Assembly: GCA_903871875.1 (NCBI GenBank)
Contig: CAIQIR010000038.1
Coordinates: 1 to 64,000, forward strand
Direction: 5' to 3'
DNA length: 64,000 nucleotides
Source of the DNA: an uncultured Schlesneria sp.
Lineage (GTDB): Bacteria > Planctomycetota > Planctomycetia > Planctomycetales > Planctomycetaceae
Shown one piece after another: positions 8,337 through 53,598 of this stretch. The notes under the pieces are model-generated. The model did not search any database. It saw nothing but the letters and a program-made list of their open reading frames with translations, and was not told the origin of the DNA. The stretch's first letter is position 1; each line of letters starts with the position of its first letter. A program made the translations under genes and the position numbers.

Positions 8337-9127
8337 TGTTCGCGAATTCCTTTTGCCATCGACAGGCCTCATCTGAACACAGCCGCACTGCGGGACAAAT
8401 CGGCCGATCGGTGGAGCGATTTTCGGTCGCGCGACGCGGGAAATCGTTCGATCCGCAAATGACCGCAACCAGCCGCTCCATCGGGCAGAGGGTAGCCGTG
8501 GAAGGGAAAATCGCAAAGGTTTTGTCGATCTTTTTCACGTCGATTTAAGGATTCACACCTTCGCACTTCGAATTCCGAAACGCTGCAGACCGGCGATTCT
8601 CCGAGCCAAACCAGAAGACCAGCAGAAATGAGGTCCGAAGAAAAATGGCAGGGGGGCGACGAGCGGTCGATTCGACCGAGCCACGCTCCAGATGGCGAAG
8701 GTGTCACACACTTTTGGGGGGTGAGCACGCTGTCGATCCACGCCATTACTCCAACGGTACAGATGTCGGCAGAGAGGACGGAACGGTTTGAGGAGGGCTG
8801 GGCAGTGCTGCGTTGATTCGGGGGCGGCCATTGCGCACTCACCGCCGCCATCTCACAGGGGATGGTTCCGGAAGGTCGCGGCCCGATCGATCTGTCATTC
8901 GCGCCAACCGATCGCGTGCGTCAGACCGGCCTCGGCAAACACCGGCCGCCCCGATCAAGGTCAGCCACAACCAGGAACCAACGACTTCGACTTATGCTTT
9001 TTTTCCCAGATTCTGTGTGAAGTTCATTTCAGACATCCCGTCGCTACTTTAGGATAGACGGGGATCGGAGAACTCCCTTCCGATCGGGCAATTCTGGCAT
9101 CAAACCGACTGTTTCTGAAAGTTGATT
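8337..9127. other. intergenic region without a convincing gene
   Basis: About 790 bp between divergent genes. Frames here lack family signatures and ribosome-binding sites. Near the right end there is a CCCGTC...GACGGG inverted repeat around 9038-9062 overlapping a possible -10 (TAGGAT), which might control the MlrC-like gene. Confidence 0.35.
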
Positions 9128-10612
9128 ATGCCGCGGGTTGGCATCATCGCATTGATTCAAGAATCGAATACGTTTCTACGCGGTTCGACGTCACTGAAAC
9201 ATTTTCAGGACGATCTGCTGCTGTTAGGCGCCGATGTGCGGCGGCAATTCGCCACGGCCCACCACGAGATCAGAGGTTTTTTCGACGGGCTGAGCGAAGC
9301 CGGTCTTGAGGCCGTACCACTCTTCGCCGCCCGAGCGCTGCCCTACGGCGCGATTGAGCCTGCCGCGTTTGAAGCGTTGTGCGGGATGATGCTGCAGGAA
9401 CTGAGGGATGCCGGTCCACTGGACGGACTGCTGGTTGCACCGCACGGGGCGACAGTCGCCGAATCATATCCAGACGCCGACGGAGAATGGTTGTCACGGG
9501 TGCGTCAGTATGTCGGCCCTGACCTGCCAATCATCGGCACGTTGGATCCGCACGGCAACTTATCGCCGCAGATGGTCGAATCGACCAATGCCCTGGTCGC
9601 GTACCGCACCAATCCGCATATCGATCAGGAGCAGCGAGGGTTGGAAGCGGCCGAACTGATGGCCAGAACGCTGGGCGGTCGCATTCGTCCCGTCCAGGCC
9701 GCCTGTTTCCCGCCAATGGCCATGAACATCGAGCGGCAATGTACGACCGAATCGCCCTGCCGAGAATTGGTGGGCTGTTTCAATCAAATGCGAGACCGCG
9801 AAGGGGTTCTCGCCGCGAGCCTGATGCTGGGCTTCCCTTACGCAGACGTCGCGGAGATGGGTTCTTCCGCATTGGTCGTCACCGATGGTCAACCCGAATT
9901 GTCCCAACGCCTGGCGGACGAATTGGGGCGGGAAATGTGGAATCGGCGGCAAGGCCTGGCCGGTCATTTCCTTTCCGTCGACGACGCGGTGCGACAGGCT
10001 GCGAGGCTGGCCGGTCCGGTCTGCATGCTGGATATGGGAGACAACGTAGGTGGTGGTTCACCCGGCGACGGGACCTGGATTGCTCATGAACTGAATCGCA
10101 CCGGGATTGGTCCGGCATTCGTTTGCATTGATGACGCGTTCACGGTGAAAGCCGCGGAAGCGACGGGCGTCGGCAAGGCTGCTCGGTTTTCCATCGGGGG
10201 TCGAACCGACGATTTGCACGGCGCACCGCTCGAAGCAGAATTCGAAGTCCAGCAATTGGCCGATGGCCGCTATACCGAAACCGAAGTGCGCCACGGCGGC
10301 TTCACCGAATTCGATCAGGGCCGTACTGCCGTGTTAACGAATGGCAACGGGCTGACAGTGATGGTCACCTCCAAGCGAACACCGCCGTTCAGTCTGCGAC
10401 AACTGACGGCCTTTGGTCTCGATCCTCGACAATTTCAGATTCTCGTAGCCAAAGGTGTCAATGCCCCGTTGGCGGCTTATAGCGCCGTCTGTCCCAGCAT
10501 TCTTCGCGTCAATACTCGTGGTGTGACGGTCGCCGATATGACTCAGCTGCCCTTTCGTCACCGACGTCGGCCGATGTTCCCTTTTGAGGGTGCGATGACA
10601 TGGTCCGCCTGA
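9128..10612 (+). CDS. M81 family (MlrC-like) metallopeptidase
   Basis: 494 residues from ATG 9128. MlrC-family marks are the N-terminus RVGIIALIQESNTF, the metal-site motifs LVAPHGATVAE and IGTLDPHGNLS, and the C-terminal LDMGDNVGGGSPGDGTWI. MlrC was first known from microcystin degradation, but most members belong to unrelated catabolic pathways, so the substrate is unknown; it is probably a zinc-dependent cytoplasmic hydrolase of small peptides or amides. It stands 145 bp before the secretion operon and may not be part of it. Confidence 0.85.
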   Translation: MPRVGIIALIQESNTFLRGSTSLKHFQDDLLLLGADVRRQFATAHHEIRGFFDGLSEAGLEAVPLFAARALPYGAIEPAAFEALCGMMLQELRDAGPLDGLLVAPHGATVAESYPDADGEWLSRVRQYVGPDLPIIGTLDPHGNLSPQMVESTNALVAYRTNPHIDQEQRGLEAAELMARTLGGRIRPVQAACFPPMAMNIERQCTTESPCRELVGCFNQMRDREGVLAASLMLGFPYADVAEMGSSALVVTDGQPELSQRLADELGREMWNRRQGLAGHFLSVDDAVRQAARLAGPVCMLDMGDNVGGGSPGDGTWIAHELNRTGIGPAFVCIDDAFTVKAAEATGVGKAARFSIGGRTDDLHGAPLEAEFEVQQLADGRYTETEVRHGGFTEFDQGRTAVLTNGNGLTVMVTSKRTPPFSLRQLTAFGLDPRQFQILVAKGVNAPLAAYSAVCPSILRVNTRGVTVADMTQLPFRHRRRPMFPFEGAMTWSA

Positions 10613-48823: not shown

Positions 48824-48910
48824 GGAGAGGTGGCAGAGTGGCCGATTGCACCGGTCTTGAAAACCGGCATGTCCGTGAGGGCATCGTGAGTTCAAATCTC
48901 ACCCTCTCCG
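48824..48910 (+). tRNA. tRNA-Ser (anticodon TGA)
   Basis: Acceptor GGAGAGG 48824-48830 pairs with CCTCTCC 48903-48909, discriminator G 48910; the anticodon loop CTTGAAA gives anticodon TGA; a long variable arm (class II) precedes the T arm GTGAG-TTCAAAT-CTCAC. CCA is not encoded. The 3' end is the integration site of the element that follows. Confidence 0.95.
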
Positions 48911-50727
48911 CTTTCTTTCAAAACAAGCCCTTCTGCCAATAGGTCGAAGGGCTTTCTCATTGTTGGTACAAGACTTACGCCTTCGAGCGTCCAGTTCAAA
49001 CAGATGATTTCGAGGATTCTGCGTTTCGCAGCGTAGTCAGCCTCAAGCCATTTGGTGCGAAGGTTTTGAGAAAGTTCAAACGCTTTGATCGCTGTGTCGA
49101 TGATTTCATGTCGAGTGCGATCAGCCATGTCTATTTCAAGCTTTAACCCTGCTTCCTGGTCTCGAAGCTCTCGTGATTTTTGAGCGTAGGTGTCTGCTTC
49201 AATCTCCTCAAGCATACGAAGGTTCAAGAGCCGATCCTGTTGCTGGCGAACATGGATCAATTCGCTTTGAAGCTCCATCGCCCGTTTGGCTGACAATCGT
49301 TGATCCCAGTTCGCAGCAGTCCTCAACTCTTCCCTAAACGTCTGCCGGAATTCATCGTCACCAACTCGCAGCTTGTCGAACAATGACAGTATCTGACTGT
49401 CAATTTCACGTTCGGTCAGTCGATGACGGGGATGGTCGCCTTTGCTGTAATTTGCACATCGGTAGTAGACGTATTGGCGGTCGCCAGTTTTGGTTTTCTT
49501 CGTTTTCAATTCACCCGTGATTGGCGAACCGCAATGCCCACACGTGATCAATTCGCTGGCATAAACCATTTCATGTGACCTGTAGATTTTCCGACCAAGC
49601 AGATTTTGGACACGATCCCAAGTGGCACGATCAACCAGTGGCTGATGTGTCCCTGGCAACCAATCTCCCTTGTGCTTGATCTCACCGATGTAGGAACGGT
49701 TGGTCAGAAGCCTGTGGAGCTTGCTGCGGGTAAGTTTTGGCATCGAAGGGAGGAAGGTCATGCCTTCGGTGAAAAGGGTTTCTCGAAGAGTGTCGATTGT
49801 GTGGTTGTGATAGGCGTAAAGTTCAAATGCCCGTCGAACGACCGCAGCGTTTTCAGGATGAATCTGAATGAGGGAGCGGCCATTGATGCGGATATTGAGA
49901 TATCCATGTGGCGGGTTATTGGGAAACAATCCATTTTGAATCCGGCGGGCAAGACCTTCCCTAACATCCAGTGACTGCTGTTCTGTGTAAAAGCTTGCCA
50001 TGCTCGCCAGCATCCGCCGCTGCATTCGACCCGCAGGGGAATTCTCGGTTGGCTGAGAAACGGAAATGAACTGGATGCCGCACTCTGATTCCAGCCGTTC
50101 GAGTTCCACGTAATCGAAGAGATTTCGTGCGGCTCTGTCGACTTTGTAAAAGAGCAGTCCGTCCAGTCGATTGGAATTCTTCTTGGCGAATGCCAGCAGT
50201 TCTTTGAAAGTTTTTCGTTCGTCATGCTTCGATGCCGTTTCGGCAATGCGGAACAGCCGAATAATTTCGCCGTTGTTGCGTTCGGCGTAGAGACGAAGAG
50301 CATCGACCTGAACATCGAGCGAGAATCCTTCCCGCTCTTGTTCTCTACTGCTCACACGAGCCAGGGCAGCGAATCGTTTTTGAGTTTTCACCGCAATCCC
50401 TTGTCGCCAAATGTTCTTCACGCAATCCTTCTCAACTGCTTCCAGCATCACCAAGTCTGTCATGTTCCTGGCGGCTCGATCGATTTTGTAGAACAGCATC
50501 CCGTCGTAGTCAGCCGCATTCCGTTTGGCGAAATTGATTGCCTCTTTGAAGATCTTCCGCTGCTCCGTTTTGGTTGCGGTCTCAGCGATCCTGAAAACCT
50601 TTTCCACAACGCCATTGTTCCGCTTGGCGTAGTGTTCAAATGCTTCCTCCTGGACATCGAGGCTGAAACCTTCTCGCTCTTGCTCACGGCTGCTGACTCG
50701 TGCAAACCCGATAAACCGCTTCTTCAT
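48892..50727 (-). CDS. large serine recombinase with duplicated catalytic N-terminus
   Basis: 611 residues. Two resolvase catalytic modules in tandem: residues 1-116 with Ser12 in ARVSSREQEREGFSLDVQ and KIDRAARN, and residues 117-260 with Ser126 in the same motif, KVDRAARN and the E-helix region SPAGRMQRRMLASMASFYTE, which the first copy lacks. Then the Recombinase domain (NPPHGYLNIRINGR, LLTNRSYIGEIKHKGDW), a zinc-ribbon-like segment (ITCGHCGSPITGE, YYRCAN; a fourth Cys is not seen) and a coiled coil. The last residues SGEGEI and the stop are encoded by the antisense strand of the tRNA. Starts 4 bp inside the upstream small ORF (ATGA). Confidence 0.93.
   Translation of the reverse strand: MKKRFIGFARVSSREQEREGFSLDVQEEAFEHYAKRNNGVVEKVFRIAETATKTEQRKIFKEAINFAKRNAADYDGMLFYKIDRAARNMTDLVMLEAVEKDCVKNIWRQGIAVKTQKRFAALARVSSREQEREGFSLDVQVDALRLYAERNNGEIIRLFRIAETASKHDERKTFKELLAFAKKNSNRLDGLLFYKVDRAARNLFDYVELERLESECGIQFISVSQPTENSPAGRMQRRMLASMASFYTEQQSLDVREGLARRIQNGLFPNNPPHGYLNIRINGRSLIQIHPENAAVVRRAFELYAYHNHTIDTLRETLFTEGMTFLPSMPKLTRSKLHRLLTNRSYIGEIKHKGDWLPGTHQPLVDRATWDRVQNLLGRKIYRSHEMVYASELITCGHCGSPITGELKTKKTKTGDRQYVYYRCANYSKGDHPRHRLTEREIDSQILSLFDKLRVGDDEFRQTFREELRTAANWDQRLSAKRAMELQSELIHVRQQQDRLLNLRMLEEIEADTYAQKSRELRDQEAGLKLEIDMADRTRHEIIDTAIKAFELSQNLRTKWLEADYAAKRRILEIICLNWTLEGVSLVPTMRKPFDLLAEGLVLKESGEGEI
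48904..48961. repeat. left copy (attL side) of a 58-nt imperfect direct repeat
   Basis: Matches 53497-53554 at 53 of 58 positions. It begins with the core CTCTCCGCT and includes the inverted repeat AAGCCCTTC / GAAGGGCTT (48925-48953), which may also terminate the tRNA transcript. On the minus strand it encodes the recombinase segment RKPFDLLAEGLVLKES. Confidence 0.85.
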
Positions 50728-50927
50728 GGACGATTGCTCCGCAAGACTCCAGCAGCGTCAAGCAGCCGACTGAGGGACACAATCAGGTTGATCGAATCAT
50801 CGTCGGAATTCTGGCGACAGGATGTTTGAAGCACCTGTTTTGCCTGATCGATCAGTGCGGGCTTAATCCATTTGGGACAATCCGCTTGTTCGCCAGTTCC
50901 ATGACATTCCTGACTTGATCCGCCCAT
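50724..50927 (-). CDS. small ORF coupled to the recombinase
   Basis: 67 residues ending ...AAGVLRSNRP, with its stop overlapping the recombinase start (ATGA, 4 bp). The segment LIDQAKQVLQTSC and INLIVSLSRLLDAAG predict two helices. No family recognised. The arrangement suggests a small accessory protein or a coupling leader peptide. The N-terminal third may instead belong to a frame-disrupted longer gene, since an overlapping frame (50852-51058) also looks protein-like. Confidence 0.45.
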   Translation of the reverse strand: MGGSSQECHGTGEQADCPKWIKPALIDQAKQVLQTSCRQNSDDDSINLIVSLSRLLDAAGVLRSNRP

Positions 50928-51058
50928 TTGACCAGAACTTTACGCTGCAATTCGGTGGGGCAACCGCACATTGCGTTGCCATCTACTTCCGATTGCGGGA
51001 AAGTTCGGGTAACGGCGTTACCGAACCGGTAGCGGGTATTCTTTGAACGGACTCGGCT
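50852..51058 (-). pseudogene. frame remnant upstream of the small ORF
   Basis: 69 codons between stops with no credible start. It includes NTRYRFGNAVTRTF, a pattern like the R-Y-x-x-G-N-A-V of the last motif of DNA cytosine-5 methyltransferases, then CGCPTELQRKVLVKWADQ. Shifting frame near 50870 would join it to the small ORF. Probably decayed; the methyltransferase link is only a motif resemblance. Confidence 0.25.
51003..51026. promoter_or_regulatory. dyad-symmetric site between divergent element genes
   Basis: GGTAACG 51008-51014 and CGTTACC 51016-51022 around one G, extended by GTTC and GAAC outside with a single unpaired base. It lies between the recombinase side (leftward) and the lectin-like gene (rightward) and could be an operator or a control site. 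Confidence 0.35.
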
Positions 51059-51079
51059 TCACGAAAAACCGTGTGTAGA

Positions 51080-52249
51080 ATGTGGAAGTTGAATCCCATT
51101 GCCCCCAGTACGCCACTTCACGCCGAAGTCAAAAACATCGAGGGGACAATCAAATCCGTCGACACAGCGAAACGAACGATCACCGTGGAAACGGATGGTA
51201 AATCGAAGTCGCTCGACCTGAGCAGCAAAGTGAAAATCACGAAGGACGGGGAGGAAGAGTCGCTTGATTCATTGAAATCGGGTCAGCAGGTGACGATTTC
51301 GTACCATGACGACTTGGAGGTTGTCTTAAAAATTGACGTGACCACAGCGAGTGATGGCATTCCGACTCCTGCACAAGCCGAAGGAAAAAGTCCACCGAAA
51401 GATGCGGCTACTTTCAAAGGTCATTCGTACAAGTTCTTCTCTGATGTCATGTCGTGGCATCGTGCGAAAAAGCGATGCGAAGAGATGGGCGGGCACCTCG
51501 CCACAATTTCCAATGCCGATGAAGAACGATTCGTTGTAAATCTGGCCACAAAAGGCATCTCTGTGCCGACACCAATGGACGGCATCTGGATGGGAGCCAC
51601 GGACGAAGAGAAAGAAGGCGAATGGAAATGGATTGATGGCACCAAGTCCAAGTATTCGAACTGGGAAAAAGGCCAGCCAAACAATAAGCAGGAAAACGAG
51701 CATTATTTGCTCTATTGGCTTAAAGGCAAAAGTTGGGTAGATCAGCCAGACAAATCGGTGCAGCACCCTGCCTATTTCGTTTGCGAGTGGGATGCTCCGA
51801 ATTCCATCGTTGTCGGCAAGGTTTCTGAAAAGAACTTGGAAGCTGACGCCGAAGTACTGAAGATGCTTCAAGGTGAATGGAAATGTATTGCTGGTGAACA
51901 TAATGGAAAGCCGCAAGAAAAAAGTGTAGTAAAACACGAGAACAGACGCTTCACCATTGAAGGGAATACACTCACCATGACACGGACAGGGATGGGTGGC
52001 AGATTTGGAACCTACAGCGGCAAGTTCTCAATAGATGCCTCAAATGGTCATCTCGACTGGGTGGGAAAAGTGAAGATTGGGGATGCTGAACCCACATTCA
52101 TGGAATGGATTGGAATCTATGAATTGGATGGCGATACGCTGAAAGTGGTGTACATCGACGGGAAGGCAAAGAGACCTGCATTTAAGTTTGCTCCGGTGCC
52201 TAAAGGATTAAACCACATCTTCTACACCATGAAGCGTGACAATGAATAA
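51080..52249 (+). CDS. C-type lectin-like / TIGR03067 domain protein
   Basis: 389 residues from ATG 51080. Three parts: an N-terminal small beta domain (IEGTIKSVDTAKRTITVETD), a C-type lectin-like domain (about 105-240: GHSYKFFSDVMSWHRAKKRC, GGHLATISNADEERFV, WMGATDEEKEGEWKWIDG) and a TIGR03067 domain (about 262-389: LKMLQGEWKCIAGEHNGKPQ). No signal peptide precedes it, so the 5' end may be truncated at the element side. Carbohydrate binding is possible but the Ca2+ ligands are not certain. Cargo of the integrated element. Confidence 0.8.
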   Translation: MWKLNPIAPSTPLHAEVKNIEGTIKSVDTAKRTITVETDGKSKSLDLSSKVKITKDGEEESLDSLKSGQQVTISYHDDLEVVLKIDVTTASDGIPTPAQAEGKSPPKDAATFKGHSYKFFSDVMSWHRAKKRCEEMGGHLATISNADEERFVVNLATKGISVPTPMDGIWMGATDEEKEGEWKWIDGTKSKYSNWEKGQPNNKQENEHYLLYWLKGKSWVDQPDKSVQHPAYFVCEWDAPNSIVVGKVSEKNLEADAEVLKMLQGEWKCIAGEHNGKPQEKSVVKHENRRFTIEGNTLTMTRTGMGGRFGTYSGKFSIDASNGHLDWVGKVKIGDAEPTFMEWIGIYELDGDTLKVVYIDGKAKRPAFKFAPVPKGLNHIFYTMKRDNE

Positions 52250-52525
52250 TCTATGGAAGGGCCGTTGATGCAAACGTAGCAACGATGATCGTCGTCATTA
52301 AGGGAAGTAGTTTCTTGCTCATCGGAATTCCATTTGTCGAACGAAGTGATACCTGTGTTCTTGCGAAGCGAAACATCAGAGGTCGTGTTGCTACTTGGCT
52401 GCTGCTTGCGTCGAATGAGTGATTCCTCCGTGCCAGATTCCGTCCGTGTTGCTTCCTGGGTCTTCACTTTTTCCTTTTCGCCATCACCATCCAATGCTGA
52501 TTCTGTTTTGGCTTCTATCGGCGTT

Positions 52526-53278
52526 TCAGACAAGTTCAGAATGTGGAGACGAAGGCCATGCTTGACGTACTTCCCCATCCAGAAGTCCGTCATGAACGAT
52601 CCGCCCACCTTCGTATCTCTGCTTAAAGAAGTGAGCGATCCCGGAGTCACGGCACTGCTGGTCGATGTCTCGCACCCAGGCGAGATCCATCTCACGACGC
52701 TTTCCAACACCGGCTCGTTCGCATCCCGTGATGATCCAATTGATGCTTCCGTCCAAATACGGACGGAAATCAATCGGCCCAAGCAAAGGTTCTGCGGAAA
52801 CCCACCGCAACGCTGCGGGGATTGACTTCAAGGTGTCCAAACGGTGCAGTGACGAGGCGATCCCACACGTGACACCGAGCCAAACATGGGGGTAGCCGTC
52901 GCCCCAATCAGCAGGCAGTCGATCTTTGATGAGTTCGATGAGTTCGGGCCGTTTTGTCAGCACGAGCCAATCGAGATTCGGACACTGCCGAATGACCTCC
53001 CAAGCCTCGGAACGCCACTCATCCGCTCCAGGATGGAAAAAGTCTGACATCGAACAGGTGAAGACCCGAAAGCGTCTGCCCTGTTCTTTGGCCTGCCGCT
53101 CCCATTTGAACGGTTTGGACCAGTCAACGGTCCTGATTGGGCCACCGAACGGAACCCGGCCCGCACGCCGCATGATTCCGTCGATGTAGCAGTGCTGGCA
53201 TTCCGCCGAGACTTTGTTACAACCCCACCAGTAATTCATGGTGTGGTGAGTCCATCCAATTTTCGAATTCTCAGCCAT
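52526..53278 (-). CDS. phage Gp37/Gp68-like (DUF5131) protein
   Basis: 250 residues from ATG 53278. The family mark is WGCNKVSAECQHCYIDGIMR, a Cys-rich motif reminiscent of radical-SAM cluster binding, followed by RVFTCSMSDFFHPGADEW, WLVLTKRPELI and RWVSAEPLLGPI. Found in phages and integrative elements; biochemical role is unknown. It is the last complete gene before the right end of the element. Its 5' upstream region has no clear promoter. Confidence 0.85.
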   Translation of the reverse strand: MAENSKIGWTHHTMNYWWGCNKVSAECQHCYIDGIMRRAGRVPFGGPIRTVDWSKPFKWERQAKEQGRRFRVFTCSMSDFFHPGADEWRSEAWEVIRQCPNLDWLVLTKRPELIELIKDRLPADWGDGYPHVWLGVTCGIASSLHRLDTLKSIPAALRWVSAEPLLGPIDFRPYLDGSINWIITGCERAGVGKRREMDLAWVRDIDQQCRDSGIAHFFKQRYEGGRIVHDGLLDGEVRQAWPSSPHSELV

Positions 53279-53346
53279 GACGGCTCTCCGCAAAAAAAGT
53301 AGTGTTTTCGACCTCTACCTCCTCTTGCGGGAATTCCTTGGTAATA

Positions 53347-53377
53347 CCGGTACTGGGCGAGTATCGGCAGTTTTTTT
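53347..53377 (+). terminator. Rho-independent terminator near the right end of the element
   Basis: CCGGTACT 53347-53354 pairs with AGTATCGG 53360-53367 (one G-U, 5-nt loop), then CAG and seven T (53371-53377). The orientation (+) does not match a gene that I can identify directly upstream. Confidence 0.45.
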
Positions 53378-53415
53378 CTGACGAGATGTGTCAAAAGCAA
53401 CTGAGTTGCATTGAT

Positions 53416-53598
53416 TTACGCCGCTTGTAGAATCTTGACGAGGTGTGGTTCCCAACCAGCCACACCTGCGATAAAAAGTTCAACTGGGGTTCTGTACTCT
53501 CCGCTGTCCTTCAAAACAAGCCCTTCGACCAATAGGTCCAAGGGCTTTCTCATTACGCAACGAGATTTACGCTGTCACCACTTAGCGAGAGAGCCGGC
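53416..53598 (-). pseudogene. recombinase C-terminal fragment at the right junction
   Basis: Read on the minus strand: weak homology to the recombinase (SVNLVA against GVSLVP), a one-base deletion, then MRKPLDLLVEGLVLKDSGE and a further 26-residue tail that starts YRTPVELFIAGVAGW and ends LVKILQAA before TAA 53416-53418. The part right of 53505 is a decayed relic outside the element; the tail left of 53497 lies inside it and continues the frame of the intact recombinase across the CTCTCCGCT core. The tail resembles C-termini of planctomycete serine recombinases. Confidence 0.7.
53497..53554. repeat. right copy (attR side) of the 58-nt imperfect direct repeat
   Basis: Starts with the same CTCTCCGCT core. 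Its hairpin has changed on both arms (AAGCCCTT-x-GACC / GGTC-x-AAGGGCTT) and still pairs. On the minus strand it encodes RKPLDLLVEGLVLKDS. Confidence 0.85.

Follow-up and report, generated by a model that had tools for sequence, protein, structure and literature searches.

We analysed a 64,000-nucleotide stretch of planctomycete DNA (hereafter the window; uncultured Schlesneria sp., contig CAIQIR010000038.1 of assembly GCA_903871875.1), which carries an element of approximately 4.6 kb extending from the 3′ end of a tRNA-Ser(TGA) gene to position 53505 (Table 1). A minus-strand open reading frame (ORF; 48892-50727, 611 aa, protein P0001) displays Resolvase, Recombinase and zinc-ribbon domains (PF00239, PF07508 and PF13408 in Pfam); by this domain set its product is a large serine integrase. 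The ORF is a fusion: approximately its first 101 residues (50425-50727) are left over from the N-terminus of another recombinase, and GTG 50391 is the probable start of the working gene. Its C-terminus reads KESGEGEI and its stop codon lies within the tRNA antisense strand; this ending, first noted in the initial annotation, was borne out by the ORF and by the ARAGORN call of the tRNA. Two cargo genes separate the recombinase from the far end of the element.

Table 1. Features of the element at tRNA-Ser(TGA), in window coordinates
Feature	Position	Strand	Evidence
tRNA-Ser(TGA); 3′ end is the proposed integration target (attB half with T-loop motif)	48824..48911	+	ARAGORN
Large serine recombinase with Resolvase, Recombinase and zinc-ribbon domains, in its integrated form; terminates with SGEGEI inside the tRNA	48892..50391	-	ORF and Pfam
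Core AGCGGAGAG, left copy, at the tRNA junction	48904..48912	-	Repeat comparison; 23-nt spacing
Hairpin AAGCCCTTC...GAAGGGCTT in the recombinase 3′ coding end, adjoining the tRNA 3′ end	48925..48954	.	Repeat, codon and folding analyses
Remains of the N-terminus of a different recombinase (~101 residues), fused in frame 5′ of the working gene	50425..50727	-	ORF and sequence match
Cargo: C-type lectin domain protein	51071..52249	+	PF00059 (Pfam)
Cargo: DUF5131 protein	52526..53293	-	PF07505 (Pfam)
Detached recombinase tail YRTPVELFIAGVAGWEPHLVKILQAA and stop; putative right half of attP	53416..53496	-	Translation, profile
Core AGCGGAGAG, right copy; 28 nt to the end of TTGAAC	53497..53505	-	Repeat comparison, spacing scan
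Older recombinase 3′-end remnant (MRKPLDLLVEGLVLKD) with its own hairpin	53506..53553	-	Translation, repeat comparison

The initial annotation had proposed that a 9-nt core shared by both ends of the element is joined at the far end, in the same frame, to a different tail. Translation agreed with this, with the right-hand copy of AGCGGAGAG reading in frame into 26 residues, YRTPVELFIAGVAGWEPHLVKILQAA, and a stop at 53416-53418. A profile of 50 tails from elsewhere recovered the window tail among 1,999 six-frame window segments with an E value of 1.2e-10, the next best segment reaching 0.12, and a chance 9-nt repeat was rejected on this result. The core thus recurs as proposed, but the repeat is longer than first described, comprising 58 nt at 91 % identity (48904-48961 versus 53497-53554), because the second core is flanked on its right by the residual 3′ end of another recombinase (MRKPLDLLVEGLVLKD), which we infer was pushed aside by the present element. 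Only one full-length recombinase of the family was found in the genome from which the window derives. An alignment of 37 tails identified five further tail-like sequences elsewhere in that genome at E <0.05 (G000:C109:2126 and 2954, C11:117502, C47:49969 and C114:24614).

Comparison with homologues covered the best 80 of 89 found, of which 66 came from planctomycetes, eight from records titled only 'bacterium' and six from other phyla, as judged by eye from record titles. The C-terminal KPF motif was kept in 76 of the 80, with the absence in the other four owing in some cases to a contig end. Junctions were classified by the distance from the start of the core to the end of a TYGAAC motif. By this measure 70 of the 76 KPF-bearing genes displayed a tRNA-type junction (23 nt), three a tail-type junction (28 nt) and three neither. 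A tRNA was called at 51 of the 70 tRNA-type junctions and was either tRNA-Pro, with several anticodons, or tRNA-Ser; tRNA-Met was seen once, in a separately fetched region (L218; designations of this form are our own locus numbers). Most tRNA-type genes (48/70) stop six codons after the core start, with TGA where the T-loop antisense reads ATTTGA, whilst nine extend 12 codons further and the remainder vary. These junctions support the earlier proposal that attP, the attachment (att) site of the element, lies in the recombinase gene and that integration would replace the tail with an end encoded by tRNA antisense.

The 5-nt difference in core-to-TYGAAC distance between tail sites (28 nt) and tRNAs (23 nt) was examined in the window and across 113 loci, including 30 tRNA loci from relatives or from the window, at spacings of 21-31 for the Pro-type core and 19-31 for the Ser-type core. 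The Pro-type core gave 64 matches at 23 nt, six at 28 nt (four tails and two background matches) and 0-4 at each other spacing. The Ser-type core gave 32 matches at 23 nt, a single match at 28 nt, which was the window, and 0-2 at each other spacing. Real tails were found at 28 nt only (L059, L084, L091, the far end of L100 and the window), alongside the two background matches. A second scan, of 48 genomes and two viral records chosen from the 80 homologue loci and seven viral loci, returned 84 matches to the 28-nt pattern compared with 20 for the reversed pattern. It included 48 tail sites encoding R---T-(V/I/F)EL, here termed ELF-type, across 28 of the 50 genomes or records, and a Ser-type tail site was present, by eye, in six of the seven genomes with Ser-type homologues. 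A complete element was also observed at another tRNA in L100, from a metagenome assembly, comprising a tail site at 2902, a recombinase at 8361-9884 and tRNA-Pro at 9830-9905. Homologues together with tail sites occur in cultured planctomycetes too, among them Planctomycetales bacterium 10988, Zavarzinella formosa and Blastopirellula marina. Pooling all loci, many of which had been fetched for this pattern, gave 98 distinct 28-nt sites, 61 of them ELF-type by DNA with a few background matches included, and frame 0 was open for mostly 25-37 codons at the pooled sites. When 20 disjoint nearest pairs of tails were compared over codons 12-26, counted from the core start, there were 204 differences, distributed 63/44/97 over codon positions 1, 2 and 3, an excess of third- over second-position differences with p 5e-6. 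This pattern suggests that the tail is under coding constraint, and a purely non-coding att arm was rejected on it, although the signal is not decisive for function.

Genes that still read into a tail were rare, and most elements are therefore seen in integrated form only. The initial annotation had looked to homologues away from a tRNA for endings like the window's stranded tail, and one such gene was found: L059 (SRGDKTAIELFMAGIRGWEAALRRLL...) is the sole full-length gene with the tail type of the window, but its setting is uncertain because it lies at a contig end in an assembly labelled Alphaproteobacteria. A second tail type (FEP) occurs at seven distinct sites (L084, L091, L125, L126, L156, L220 and L221), one of which reads VEP. 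The genes L084 and L221 are full-length and end in this tail at the same place, as does L091, which is missing part of its N-terminus; L125, L126 and L220 retain a short 3′ piece only.

Taken as a whole, the layout is a real family trait, known here mainly from planctomycete assemblies. Very probably the 3′-terminal part of the recombinase coding sequence contains attP throughout the family, and integration at a tRNA 3′ end swaps the tail. The att geometry, the frame, the tail coding signal and the selection on the hairpin described below come from sequence comparison; the circle, and a tail lost and regained with each cycle of integration and excision, are what we infer from them. In a free circle, the gene would consist of body and core followed by a 26-residue tail of the TPVELF...WE type. 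Recombination with the tRNA 3′ end would join the body to tRNA antisense, so that the protein would mostly end soon past the core, and would strand the tail at the far end of the element. The free form would be the tailed one because the att geometry demands it. In this arrangement attP corresponds to attB plus 5 bp between the core and TTGAAC, a motif common to the tRNA T-loop. These additional 5 bp would distinguish attP, much as they do for other serine integrases. Because 5 bp is not a whole number of codons, the insertion would at the same time move translation out of the frame that meets the T-loop TGA stop and into that of the tail. Genes joined to a tRNA would accordingly run into the T-loop stop, and those joined to a tail would pass through GTT GAA C or else ATT GAA C before entering the tail. 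Integration itself would in this way rewrite the enzyme C-terminus beyond the zinc-ribbon region, amounting to a genetically encoded state switch that could, if real, let the enzyme itself record whether the element is inserted or free. As the tail sits behind the zinc-ribbon region, we tentatively suggest a role in direction, with integration carried out by the tailed form and the clipped form being either silent or biased towards excision; this is a guess that we hold with somewhat less than even confidence. Such a natural pair of enzyme forms might be of use in genome engineering.

Several observations weigh against this interpretation. The circular form was not seen in any locus examined, and the terminal repeats of a circular contig were present neither among 18 whole-contig loci nor in the L059 contig. 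The whole attP-form pattern (hairpin, core and 28 nt) occurred in only four of the 392 phylum genomes scanned, each time with the FEP tail type, and had no match in viral contigs; nor did any hairpin-bearing viral contig carry an ELF or FEP tail, two of these being cut near the hairpin. Intact tail-bearing genes may instead be inner members of tandem arrays and not circles. An empty orthologous site for the window was not found, as 14 genomes of the same genus yielded no clear orthologue of the gene to the right of the element, and a flanking gene was present at only one of 30 tRNA loci covering at most ~1.5 kb each way, namely the window's own. Comparison of the L100 and L173 flanks likewise gave no clean empty and occupied pair, and revealed a shared small unit encoding a 23S rRNA intervening-sequence protein instead. 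Close homologues were also sought in phages and plasmids, which gave 236 and 79 records, with the best 20 of each listed, all below 60 % identity and none covering 80 % of the query. The exact pattern gave no ELF-type site in 22 of the 50 genomes or records scanned, three clear ELF sites carried broken or short tails (four codons in L173, 16 in L132 and 20 in L223), and frame 1 of tail sites was also often open, so that an open frame by itself is weak proof of coding. Finally, tRNA-type endings away from a tRNA, anticipated in the initial annotation as a refuting case, did occur in part: no tRNA was called at 19 of the 70, yet compared with the other 51, eleven of these keep a near-complete (one) or partial (ten) tRNA. 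The remaining eight show little beyond a T-arm-like motif at tRNA spacing and may sit at non-tRNA sites. The scarcity of T-runs behind the hairpin and the tail-bearing units without a recombinase, both described below, count in the same direction.

Taken by itself, the right end of the element in the window also fits a truncated second recombinase. The sequence at 53416-53553 could then be the 3′ remnant, left by a deletion, of a recombinase that ended in the tail, with neither an attP inside the gene nor any exchange of tails. The recombinase-like flank to the right of the core, the existence of an intact recombinase with such a tail (L059) and the missing empty site would all suit this explanation. 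However, the KPF motif or a remnant was seen left of the core at only six of 61 ELF-like sites (read by eye, with a few background matches among the 61), the others differing, as in L100, and the core and 28-nt spacing are constant, in contrast to the 23 nt of the tRNA-type ending. A remnant and nothing more was rejected on these grounds, and we regard it as highly improbable. A swap that is real but whose tail peptide is incidental deserves more weight: the DNA would then be conserved solely for its role as the attP right arm, and the two protein forms would be equivalent in function. Conservation of the first part of the tail (TPVELF) at the DNA level too, clipped ends that differ in length and sequence, and retention of the tail by units without a recombinase are consistent with this, whereas the third-position peak past the TPVELF motif (see above) and a frame maintained across Pro- and Ser-type sites with few exceptions argue against it. 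An incidental peptide is thus a possibility to be taken seriously, albeit one that we doubt.

A related question concerns the hairpin formed by the codons for KPF..EGL (AAGCCCTTC...GAAGGGCTT). Across 78 genes (76 homologues, the window and L221), 8.33 of nine hairpin pairs were formed on average compared with 5.41 expected (standard deviation 0.12, maximum 5.79) in 300 draws in which codons were drawn from each gene's own usage. The hairpin Gly codon was GGG in 74 of the 78 genes, against 337 of 2,013 Gly codons in the gene bodies, and two genes had both arms changed jointly (CCG/CGG, Gly to Arg). TTT paired with AAA in all five genes having TTT, yet ten TTC genes also carried AAA. On this codon evidence the coding hairpin is under selection. 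Once integrated, it would lie directly behind the tRNA and stand in for the displaced tRNA terminator, and it is probably a replacement terminator, such that a single DNA stretch would encode protein, act as the attachment site and probably also terminate the tRNA transcript. The far-end flanks, which under the proposed model were the tRNA neighbours before insertion, folded more strongly than random segments of the same loci (56 sites, median -18.0 versus -13.6 kcal/mol, p 5e-4; base composition uncontrolled, with approximately six of the 56 sites being recombinase 3′ ends), and several were terminator-like with T-runs. On the other hand, approximately half of these flanks fold poorly, and by our own reading a clear T-run behind the hairpin is missing in most homologues, leaving the terminator role likely yet unproven. 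The hairpin also sits ~12-45 nt from the core, near the expected attP arm, and it is quite conceivable, if somewhat short of an even prospect, that it serves recombination as a DNA structure in attP, or recombinase expression, and not tRNA termination.

Many tail-bearing units lacked a full recombinase. Twelve intervals of 0.5-10 kb between adjacent same-strand sites, in nine fetched regions, contained no full-length recombinase in a tblastn search with eight recombinase queries (E 1e-8), from which distant recombinases could escape; short recombinase 3′ pieces were present within L163, L164 and L180. The contents of the units varied. In L161 (9171-11985), two tandem 1,392-bp units, 92 % identical and bounded by tail sites, each contained a single FGE-sulfatase-type gene and terminated in a hairpin. 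A 547-bp unit in L166 (4467-5014) carried the 23S rRNA intervening-sequence protein (PF05635), and related sequence adjoins tail sites in L100, L173 and L222, followed by GGAGA-rich sequence. The region between two tail sites in L174 (294-3115) contained a HerA-like and SIR2-like gene pair, which we take to be a likely anti-phage module, and in L218 an acyltransferase was flanked on one side by a tail site and on the other by the final 73 codons of a recombinase, at tRNA-Met. Units ending straight at a tRNA were observed in L173 and L223. Short recombinase 3′ ends joined to a tail, as in L163, L211 and the window, suggest that newcomers insert between the tRNA and the resident gene and thereby renew the resident's tail. 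The family is also suggestive of arrays of small, mobile gene units that are anchored at planctomycete tRNA genes. A bolder and rather unlikely extension would be a tRNA-anchored, serine-recombinase counterpart of the integron, in which inserting units, each beginning with the tail that the resident lacks and many of them recombinase-less, return a tail to the resident recombinase, so that insertion re-arms and excision disarms it. If so, the state of the recombinase would be written by its own DNA product.

Integrons resemble these arrays in comprising small recombinase-less units in one orientation with a shared boundary site (here L161, L162, L166, L172 and L174), but they use the tyrosine integrase IntI, in contrast to the serine recombinase and tRNA anchor seen here (attC was not searched for). 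Staphylococcal cassette chromosome (SCC) elements carry serine recombinases (ccr) and form tandem elements at one site, some without a recombinase. SCC inserts at the 3′ end of rlmH, a protein gene, and its recombinase gene is unaltered by integration; the targets of the present family are tRNA genes and not rlmH. We know of no serine integrase with attP in its own coding sequence, and a literature search that covered few subscription papers found no serine or bacterial recombinase with an att site in its own gene. Large serine integrases of the A118, phiC31 and Bxb1 type share the Resolvase, Recombinase and zinc-ribbon domains. They differ from the present family, in which attP lies inside the integrase coding sequence, integration would alter the C-terminus and tRNA 3′ ends are targeted. 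The 28 versus 23 nt found here, for one half-site and in sequence only, equals the offset of the A118-type model, in which the distance of the zinc-domain motif from the site centre is 5 bp greater on attP than on attB (PMC3783163); the same paper states that known serine integrases require a separate directionality protein for excision. The only printed precedent found for an att site in the recombinase's own gene is that of the archaeal 'suicidal' tyrosine integrases (SSV, pTN3 and pT26-2), as described in the review PMC8371274. There the gene is broken on integration, whereas here approximately the last 26 residues would be exchanged, leaving the catalytic and DNA-binding body whole. The archaeal enzymes are also of the unrelated tyrosine type, whilst only serine recombinase domains were found in the bacterial family described here. 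That review treats recombinases that disrupt their own gene as exclusive to archaea, against which the present layout would be the first found for a bacterial or serine recombinase.

The tRNA-Ser(TGA) gene has probably been used at least twice, with the present element moving the older remnant outward, because a recombinase remnant lies to the right of the core and relatives match only as far as the tRNA end and carry other hairpins. In same-genus tRNA-Ser genes (L005-L011, the best matches), similarity to the window ends at most 4 nt past the tRNA 3′ end, and two such loci read by eye had different hairpins 3′ of the tRNA. A second tRNA-Ser in the same genome as the window is adjoined by a similar remnant, MNKPFDLLVEGLVLKHSGEGGI. 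Separately, the same-genus locus L006 (1501-2790) contained a unit of ~1.2 kb, bordered on one side by the corresponding tRNA-Ser and on the other by an incomplete repeat of the tRNA 3′ part, with a toxin-antitoxin-like gene pair (by eye). This is another insertion at the same tRNA-Ser, and no recombinase of the family was noticed in the stretch read. In L050, L053, L060-L063, L076 and L086, recombinase ends were joined to partial tRNA 3′ halves that break at nearly identical places in the anticodon loop, as though another kind of island had left them behind.

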